DNA of 64,000 nt, from assembly GCA_021801355.1 (NCBI GenBank), contig JAJYYB010000005.1, positions 1-64,000 of the forward strand. Reading direction: 5' to 3'. This document shows positions 61,198 to 62,736 of this stretch, piece by piece. Source of the DNA: Microcaldota archaeon. Its GTDB lineage: Archaea > Micrarchaeota > Micrarchaeia > Micrarchaeales > Micrarchaeaceae. A program made the position numbers and the translations under genes. A model generated the notes under the pieces. The model ran no database searches and was not told the origin of the DNA. It saw only the letters and a list, made by a program, of their open reading frames with translations. Each line of letters begins with the position of its first letter. Positions within the stretch are counted from its first letter, which is position 1.

Positions 61198-61208
61198 CCT
61201 ATTTAAAT
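61198..61208 (+). promoter_or_regulatory. TATA box upstream of the TBP-domain gene
   Basis: CCTATTTAAAT would start transcripts near 61230, about 80 bases before the first standard in-frame start codon (GTG 61312) of the TBP gene. Confidence 0.45.
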
Positions 61209-61311
61209 CTTTTCATCCTAACTTAATAACGGTGTTAAAACGGCTGCTAAAACTCCTGCATCGCGCTCAAACGATATAATAAAACCTACAATAAAGATAC
61301 AGAATATAGTC

Positions 61312-61602
61312 GTGAGCGCAGACCTACATGCTGTCATAGACCTGTACTCACTGTCAAGGGACGTCAAGGCGGTGGACTATGAGCCGGAGCAGTTCCCAGG
61401 CGCAATATTCAAGATAGCCGAGCCAAAGGCAGTAATAATCCTGTTCAAGAACGGCAAGATGATATGTACCGGGGCGAACACCGAAGCCAACATAAAGAAG
61501 GTGCTCGAGTACGCTTCAAAGATAATATCAAAGTACGTTATAGAACTTGTAACCACTCCTAAATCCTCCGAGGTAAAGAAACAGGCAGCAGAGGCGAAGT
61601 GA
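61312..61602 (+). CDS. Single-repeat TATA-binding protein homologue
   Basis: 96 residues from GTG 61312 and only one TBP repeat, where normal TBP has two. VDYEPEQFPGAIFKIAEPKA, IILFKNGKMICTGANTEANIKK and YASKII follow the consensus closely, including the FPG and GKxxxTG turns that contact DNA. The first strand (TIKIQNIVVSADL) is encoded in frame just upstream of the GTG, back to about 61276, but no ATG, GTG or TTG precedes it, so either ATA is used, the strand is lost, or there is a mutation. The last 20 residues are a charged tail in place of repeat two. A dimer could mimic TBP. Confidence 0.8.
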   Translation: MSADLHAVIDLYSLSRDVKAVDYEPEQFPGAIFKIAEPKAVIILFKNGKMICTGANTEANIKKVLEYASKIISKYVIELVTTPKSSEVKKQAAEAK

Positions 61603-62736
61603 TCACATCTTAGCTACCTTAGCCAGATACCTGTCGAATTTCCCAAAAAATCTCTCCCACGAATAATACTTCTCCACCCTGGCCCTGCCCTTTTTCCCCA
61701 TCACATCTGCCAAACTAGGGTTTTCGGCGACCTCTAACATCATGGCAGCCATCTCGTCTTCGTTGTTCACAAGGAAGCCGGTTTCTTTGTCGACTATCGT
61801 TTTCCTTGGCCCTCCTTCGTTAACAGATATTATTGGCTTACAACTGGCCATGGCCTCGAGCGGCACCAAGCCATAGTCCTCATCTATTGGTGCGTATAGC
61901 ACCGCAGTTGCATGAGAATAATAATCCTTCAGTTCCGCATCGCCTACCGCACCTACTATATCTACATCGCCGACATCCTTCGCCAGCTCAACGACTTTCT
62001 TATAAAAATCGTAATAGAAGCCGTCCTTGGAAACTGGCCCAACCAATACGAGTCTGTAACCCTTAATTTTCTTTTTGAAGGTCTGGAACGCCCTTATAGC
62101 ATAGTCCTGCCTCTTGTTGGGTGACATTCTGGAAGGATAAAGGAAGTACTTGTCATCACCTTTATCGCAATAGAGTTCGTACTCCACTCCCCCGTTAAGC
62201 ACTTCCGCGTCATCCCTGCCGAAATATTTCGAGATTCTTGACCTTATGTTGTCGCTATTCGCCACTATAAGCTCAAGTCTGCTAACGATTCTCCTGTCTA
62301 TGCTGCGTACGGCCCTGGCTCCTAGCATGTAAACCGGCTTCTGGTAAAAGCTTTTCATCGATAGCCTGTAACCATAAAGGTCATATACGTCTCTAAGCGG
62401 CGTATGGCAATACCAGAGCACCCTCTCATTTTTATTGCGTACCCAGTGGCTCGGGGCGATATGTGCATTCAGCACATCGTAATCCTCATCTATCTTCATT
62501 CCATAGAAACCAAGGCCGTAATTAAGTCCCTGGGATACCCTGCCGTAAGGCAGGAGCCTGCCGAGCCCTCCATTTTTTATCACTTCCACGTCTAGATCAG
62601 AGAACTCAGAAAAAGTGCCTTCCTCGTTGTATTCTGCAGTGTAAATCTTGGCCTTGTAATGCTGCGCTATCTTCAGTACCACGCGCTCACCTCCGCCTTT
62701 GAGGGTGAGATTGGCTTGAGTCATAATCACCTTCAT
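61603..62736 (-). CDS. Glycosyltransferase family 4
   Basis: 377 residues, GT-B fold. N-terminal LTLKGGGERVVLKIAQHY (the Gly-rich acceptor loop), LYPSRMSPNKRQDYAIRAF (start of the donor domain), and the nucleotide-sugar motif DEDYGLVPLEAMASCKPII with NEGGPRKTI. The first half resembles ALG11/GT4 mannosyltransferases. With AglB in the same window a role in building the N-glycan lipid is possible but not shown. Converges with the TBP gene with no gap. Confidence 0.88.
   Translation of the reverse strand: MKVIMTQANLTLKGGGERVVLKIAQHYKAKIYTAEYNEEGTFSEFSDLDVEVIKNGGLGRLLPYGRVSQGLNYGLGFYGMKIDEDYDVLNAHIAPSHWVRNKNERVLWYCHTPLRDVYDLYGYRLSMKSFYQKPVYMLGARAVRSIDRRIVSRLELIVANSDNIRSRISKYFGRDDAEVLNGGVEYELYCDKGDDKYFLYPSRMSPNKRQDYAIRAFQTFKKKIKGYRLVLVGPVSKDGFYYDFYKKVVELAKDVGDVDIVGAVGDAELKDYYSHATAVLYAPIDEDYGLVPLEAMASCKPIISVNEGGPRKTIVDKETGFLVNNEDEMAAMMLEVAENPSLADVMGKKGRARVEKYYSWERFFGKFDRYLAKVAKM

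Follow-up and report, generated by a model that had tools for sequence, protein, structure and literature searches.

The TATA-binding protein (TBP), a transcription initiation factor of archaea and eukaryotes, is regarded as universally two-lobed, with a dimer of one-lobe proteins as its hypothetical ancestor, and both lobes of the canonical protein are used on its site. Canonical TBPs carry the PF00352 lobe twice (PDB 1mp9, 2z8u, 1pcz and 1cdw). The glutamates of the YEPE motif in their C lobe bind TFB (PMC7221094), and in canonical archaea the BRE and TFB are held to orient the complex (PMC7289017). A comparison of 34 species led Adachi et al. (2016; PMC4910066) to a single duplication of TBP, because N lobes and C lobes each grouped in a clade of their own, and Ravarani et al. 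(PMC7221094) assumed that archaeal and eukaryotic TBPs have as many N as C lobes. In a survey of the DPANN archaea TBP is merely listed as conserved. Single TBP-like lobes are known from bacteria and viruses (RNase HIII, RnlA and viral TBP-like proteins; PMC7221094), where one helix-grip lobe binds double-stranded nucleic acid; in bacteria these lobes are built into other proteins and have no TFB-contact signature. In open full texts we found no published one-lobe TBP.

Here we describe living one-lobe TBPs of Micrarchaeota that appear as the sole TBPs of their cells, starting from a gene, termed TBP-A, in the window, i.e. the whole stretch of 64,000 nucleotides that was analysed. TBP-A shares with canonical TBP the lobe fold, the DNA-contacting Asn and Phe residues and the YEPE stirrup, and the one-lobe proteins likewise have an ordinary TFB as partner. 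They differ by having one lobe per chain, by the motifs FPGA and FKNGK, by single-gene lobes that look like neither of the canonical lobes and, in the family of the window genome, by the presence of two unlinked genes. In contrast to the bacterial lobes they stand alone and have kept the TFB-contact signature. The hypothetical one-repeat ancestor (Adachi et al. 2016, PMC4910066) would likewise have been a free lobe that needed pairing to build a saddle, yet the Micrarchaeota proteins are extant.

A single TBP lobe in the window

The open frame at 61222-61602 is preceded by TAA and encodes one TBP lobe, a charged tail and TGA, which bears out the initial annotation of a single-repeat TBP ending in such a tail and a stop. 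TBP-A (61240-61602, plus strand) was assigned as a one-lobe TBP of 120 amino acids by PF00352, AlphaFold2 and Foldseek. It matched PF00352 once, across nearly the whole 85-position model, with an E-value of 5.8e-25 and 87.4 bits (cut-off 22.9); positions 2-85 of the model correspond to the lobe at 61291-61536 (plus strand). The stirrup YEPEQFPG lies at 61378-61401 (plus strand) and includes the two glutamates that, in canonical C lobes, touch TFB. The AlphaFold2 model had a pLDDT of 88.7 and a pTM of 0.69, with low confidence for the charged C-terminal tail (61540-61599, plus strand; pLDDT 61 in the last 10-residue block). Its top Foldseek match was human TBP (1cdw) at 0.8 Å across 82 columns, i.e. 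one lobe. The NCBI models of two-lobed TBPs (NCBIfam PRK00394) gave about 86 bits at cut-offs of 181 to 347, thus TBP-A is not accepted by these naming models. A second lobe is absent downstream, where a gene on the opposite strand (61603-62736) abuts the stop codon.

Ahead of the gene, TATTTAAAT at 61200-61208 (plus strand) is by its sequence a candidate TATA box. TTTAAA, ATTTAA and TTAAAT were among the commonest hexamers between -50 and -18 ahead of genes in the window genome. Transcription of TBP-A would start about 25 nt downstream of the candidate box. An Rfam search near the gene yielded nothing credible.

TBP genes of the Micrarchaeota

The window genome is a draft of 1.07 Mb in 21 contigs with a completeness of 96%. 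Six frames with stops read through contained exactly two PF00352 matches, both one-lobe, and no two-lobed TBP was found in this search. The initial annotation had proposed to look for a second, full TBP in the genome; besides TBP-A there was only the one-lobe TBP-B on contig C21, which is unlinked to TBP-A. The two proteins are about 50% identical, and YEPE is present in both.

For the family, 60 genomes out of 27 genera were counted by hand: there were two PF00352 matches in 46, one in eight, none in three, three in two and four in one. Most of the sampled genomes share the A and B pair of the window genome. The single-contig genomes G012, G013, G028 and G034 have two one-lobe genes each and no other TBP. 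In a 92% complete genome of family f1 (G019) TBP matches were lacking, perhaps due to an assembly gap. The genome with four matches (G014) includes a canonical two-lobed TBP on an 8-kb contig with a transposase-like ORF, which we set aside as a probable contaminant. In the sister family f2 one gene was present in 41 genomes and two in 34 (hand count), and many genomes from further Micrarchaeota families likewise carry a single one-lobe gene. The single-contig f2 genome G063 and the sister-family genome G061 (97% complete, 3 contigs) each have one one-lobe gene as their sole TBP.

Across 301 genomes of the phylum, a scan indicated one-lobe TBPs for the two sister families plus about a dozen smaller ones, and two-lobed TBPs for about eleven other families. 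The 222 TBP ORFs read by sequence comprised 192 one-lobe and 30 two-lobed proteins. A two-repeat TBP at the TBP-A locus of relatives was looked for, and all orthologues read in the family and order were one-lobed. Two-lobed TBPs were confined to other families, and their two lobes resemble a fresh duplication. The best named match was Candidatus Micrarchaeota archaeon MAS5.bin21 with 99%; relatives with a name are entered as Candidatus Micrarchaeota, in one case as Candidatus Micrarchaeaceae.

Some genes departed from this distribution. Family f7 has up to three one-lobe copies (L191, L192 and L078 in G134; L193 and L068 in G142). Outside named Micrarchaeota, one-lobe TBPs (L251, L252) occurred in a record entered under Diapherotrites and in an unclassified archaeon; the TBPs of other Diapherotrites are two-lobed. 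A divergent one-lobe TBP-like protein (L010 1498-1863, plus strand, G003:C3; PF00352 40.7 bits) adjoins a phage-integrase ORF, and a mobile element in this genome, which is of the same genus, may carry its own TBP lobe. A viral origin was rejected because the IMG/VR contigs contained no relative.

The start of the TBP-A gene

Between TAA and the first strand of TBP-A there is no in-frame ATG, GTG or TTG, exactly as had been noted before. Initiation at the GTG at 61312 would remove the first strand, and the GTG at 61232 is out of frame, within GGTGTT (61231-61236, plus strand). This hexamer resembles a Shine-Dalgarno (SD) motif; GGTGAT or GGTGTT is conserved ahead of the starts of the orthologues. 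By ortholog comparison the start codon of TBP-A would be ACG at 61240-61242 (plus strand), four bases past GGTGT. Thus the earlier start at 61276 was arbitrary, and initiation at ATA, which had been offered as an explanation, was rejected as ATA is not conserved; ACG takes its place.

Relatives with a type A gene, the type of TBP-A, have GGTGAT or GGTGTT, three bases, ACG and then mostly the N-terminus T-A-[ASK]-K. Type A was compared at 53 distinct loci: 38 combine SD and ACG, and 34 of these have no competing SD with ATG, GTG or TTG. An in-frame stop codon immediately precedes ACG in eight of the 53 loci, and in 11 no ATG, GTG or TTG exists upstream of the first strand. SD plus ACG was not detected in 15 loci; several of these have ATG and one has GCG. 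ATG occupies the position of the ACG in genus g15, and none of the 16 orthologous loci of sister family f2 has an ACG start, ATG being mostly on offer.

In gene-start regions from 390 kb of the window genome the codon four bases past GGTGW was ATG in 18, GTG in 6, ACG in 3 and TTG in 2 of 44 cases; the same count in a species with a two-lobed TBP gave ACG in 0 of 38. ACG is probably usable as a start codon in the order of the window genome. We looked for the 3' end of 16S rRNA with the anti-SD in seven genomes and did not find it, perhaps because it is masked, so that SD pairing rests on motif enrichment. Translation of TBP-A apparently begins at ACG, with GGTG as the SD motif ahead of it.

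Among the genes compared, only TBP-A retains ACG across many genera. A single transition would restore ATG, thus the persistence of ACG suggests selection, possibly for a weak, self-limiting initiation. In bacteria infC, which codes for IF3, has a conserved AUU start. Both genes serve the basal expression machinery and have a conserved non-standard start; in contrast to infC, the codon of TBP-A is ACG, the gene is archaeal and the product is a transcription factor.

ACG was also seen at other genes. The uS4 gene of G063 (L351 3489-4100, plus strand) has an apparent ACG start directly after TGA with GGTGTT upstream. A PF00163 profile search for uS4 gave no matches in 39 genomes; orthologues were retrieved with a protein query, and nearly all readable ones have ATG or TTG at the position of this ACG. 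SD-spaced ACG right after a stop codon occurs in the gene for the DNA polymerase II large subunit of G063 (L348 5503-8952, minus strand) and in that for prefoldin alpha on contig C21 of the window genome (L327 11617-12048, minus strand); because ATG follows a few codons downstream in both, ACG is only suggestive there. An ACG start is also apparent in the type B gene of genus g19 (L153, L155).

Conserved residues and a proposed dimeric saddle

Across 44 one-lobe proteins Asn22, Phe52 and Phe69 are invariant, and the DNA-contact residues as a whole (the Asn of strand 1, two Phe and Thr-Gly; columns 4, 38, 57, 65 and 66) are invariant or nearly so. YEPE occurs in 29 of 29 canonical C lobes, whereas just about 3 of the 29 canonical N lobes have it. 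The motif is found in practically every lobe from Micrarchaeota and Diapherotrites, including both lobes of the two-lobed proteins; two type A proteins have YEPD. In five of five genomes tested TFB was encoded by a single, ordinary gene with two cyclin repeats.

Given that the one-lobe proteins retain YEPE for TFB binding as well as the residues for DNA contact, two subunits most likely dimerise to form the saddle. In the window genome TBP-A and TBP-B would most likely form an A-B heterodimer, with homodimers being possible, and in relatives with a single gene the saddle would be a homodimer. The TFB-binding stirrup is kept in nearly every subunit, hence an ordinary two-cyclin TFB could dock on one end. 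As TFB would be able to dock at either end of such a saddle, the direction would have to be set by TFB and the BRE and not by a fixed C lobe. The output of TBP-A may be set by weak, possibly self-limiting initiation at ACG. The analysis itself shows the gene content, the conservation, the residues, a predicted fold and the comparison of start codons; dimerisation, DNA binding, TFB docking and the regulation by ACG are inferred. Palindromic TATA boxes were considered as a mark of a symmetric TBP. The promoter motif of the window genome was the most palindromic of three (distance 0.088 versus 0.137 and 0.160). The motif model was too rough for this to carry weight, and the idea was dropped.

Relationships of the lobes

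Within two-lobed Micrarchaeota TBPs the identity between the lobes was 48-80%, compared with 42-53% in four canonical TBPs; some further canonical TBPs reached 58%. In the two-lobed TBPs of Micrarchaeota and Diapherotrites the lobes thus mostly resemble each other more closely than those of ordinary TBP do. FPGA and FKNGK are common to the Micrarchaeota and Diapherotrites lobes with few exceptions, whereas canonical lobes have FPGL and F-x-SGK. In a tree of 112 lobes, based on a short alignment of 83 columns, all Micrarchaeota and Diapherotrites lobes formed one clade (100/98) apart from the canonical N and C lobes. Inside this clade the one-lobe proteins take a basal, paraphyletic position, and the two-lobed proteins nest within them with a support of 82/79 overall and higher values at inner nodes. 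The N and C lobes of Diapherotrites are sisters (100/93), and TBP-A groups with its f2 orthologue (100/99). Thus the lobe was probably doubled again there, independently. This clade mixes N and C lobes and thereby breaks the pattern described by Adachi et al.

The clade attaches among the canonical N lobes (90/90). Forcing the classic N orthology gave a delta lnL of 53 and p = 0.0505 in the AU test, and monophyly of the canonical N lobes was not rejected (p = 0.40). An N/C profile, which was trained on distant archaea and thus gives supporting evidence only, had mean scores of -94 for canonical N and +92 for canonical C lobes. One-lobe proteins outside the order scored +1.7, B -8, f2a -29, A +18 and f2b +20. 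By these scores the one-lobe proteins outside the order would belong to neither lobe type, and paralogues within the order would lean opposite ways. The tree does not support A and B as the split N and C lobes of a canonical TBP, even if A scores on the C-like side and B on the N-like side.

Discussion

We consider it likely that TBP-A is a genuine one-lobe TBP with an ACG start from a lineage devoid of two-lobed TBP, and that the saddle is assembled from two separate subunits. A half-length, probably dimerising TBP had been among the initial proposals, and comparison across genomes supports it. The proposal of a damaged gene or assembly error, in which a frameshift or lost base removed the start codon and the second repeat, took its appeal from the lack of ATG, GTG and TTG ahead of strand 1 and from the AAAA run, where an extra A would bring the GTG at 61232 in frame. 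We give it next to no credence: independent assemblies of many genera share the one-lobe length and the GGTG-NNNNN-ACG layout, the lobe is strongly conserved, the gene is kept across 27 genera, and the only other lobe in a genome without two-lobed TBP is TBP-B. The comparison has already refuted this reading, and with it a frameshift at the GTG/AAAA run. An extra TBP-like regulator beside a normal TBP would have a parallel in the several TBP paralogues of some archaea (PMC2121645). It is most improbable here, since neither the window genome nor the single-contig relatives have a two-lobed TBP for it to accompany, and G063 and G061 of the sister family live on one one-lobe gene. One-lobe proteins might also bind TATA as monomers, or one lobe might need only TFB and no saddle. 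Sequence does not prove dimerisation, and single TBP-like lobes occur in other bacterial proteins (PMC7221094). Yet the family retains two diverged genes, and two-lobed forms arose among the relatives, which fits a use for both lobes like that in the canonical protein; we therefore regard monomeric action as unlikely.

The history of the lobes is a separate matter, and more than one account is compatible with function as a dimer. Rather probably an ancestral two-lobed TBP lost or split its lobes and some lines duplicated them again. Other archaeal TBPs that we fetched (Bathyarchaeota, Woesearchaeota, Methanobacteriota, Thermoproteota) are two-lobed, the clade joins the canonical N and not the C lobes (90/90), and genes are lost in reduced genomes. 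On the other hand, the profile places single-gene lobes near zero, and the AU test leaves canonical-N monophyly standing. Concerted evolution, i.e. a two-lobed ancestor of the class with lobes homogenised by gene conversion and one-lobe forms arising by repeated loss, would equally yield similar lobes within a protein. It concerns the history only, and it gains from the short alignment and the borderline AU result for classic N orthology. We view it as possible but doubtful, because it needs several parallel losses and the one-lobe proteins are basal and paraphyletic with the two-lobed ones nested. It is less probable still that the one-lobe form of Micrarchaeota and Diapherotrites is a state older than the duplication behind the TBP of all other archaea and of eukaryotes; two-lobed TBPs would then have evolved at least twice, and Micrarchaeaceae would represent a third solution, a heterodimer with TBP-A under control of the ACG start. 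We favor re-derivation over a primitive one-lobe TBP, though both histories fit.

Candidatus Micrarchaeum harzensis, a cultured relative, grows with its host (PMC8975820; genomes CP060530/CP060531), hence the protein may be open to study. Gene callers limited to ATG, GTG and TTG would mis-start or miss TBP-A if it starts at ACG. One-gene, two-gene and re-fused forms of TBP coexist among the relatives. This makes the origin of the TBP duplication, promoter direction with a symmetric TBP and the evolution of asymmetry testable with small recombinant proteins, while the conserved ACG points to an unusual use of start codons in Micrarchaeales.
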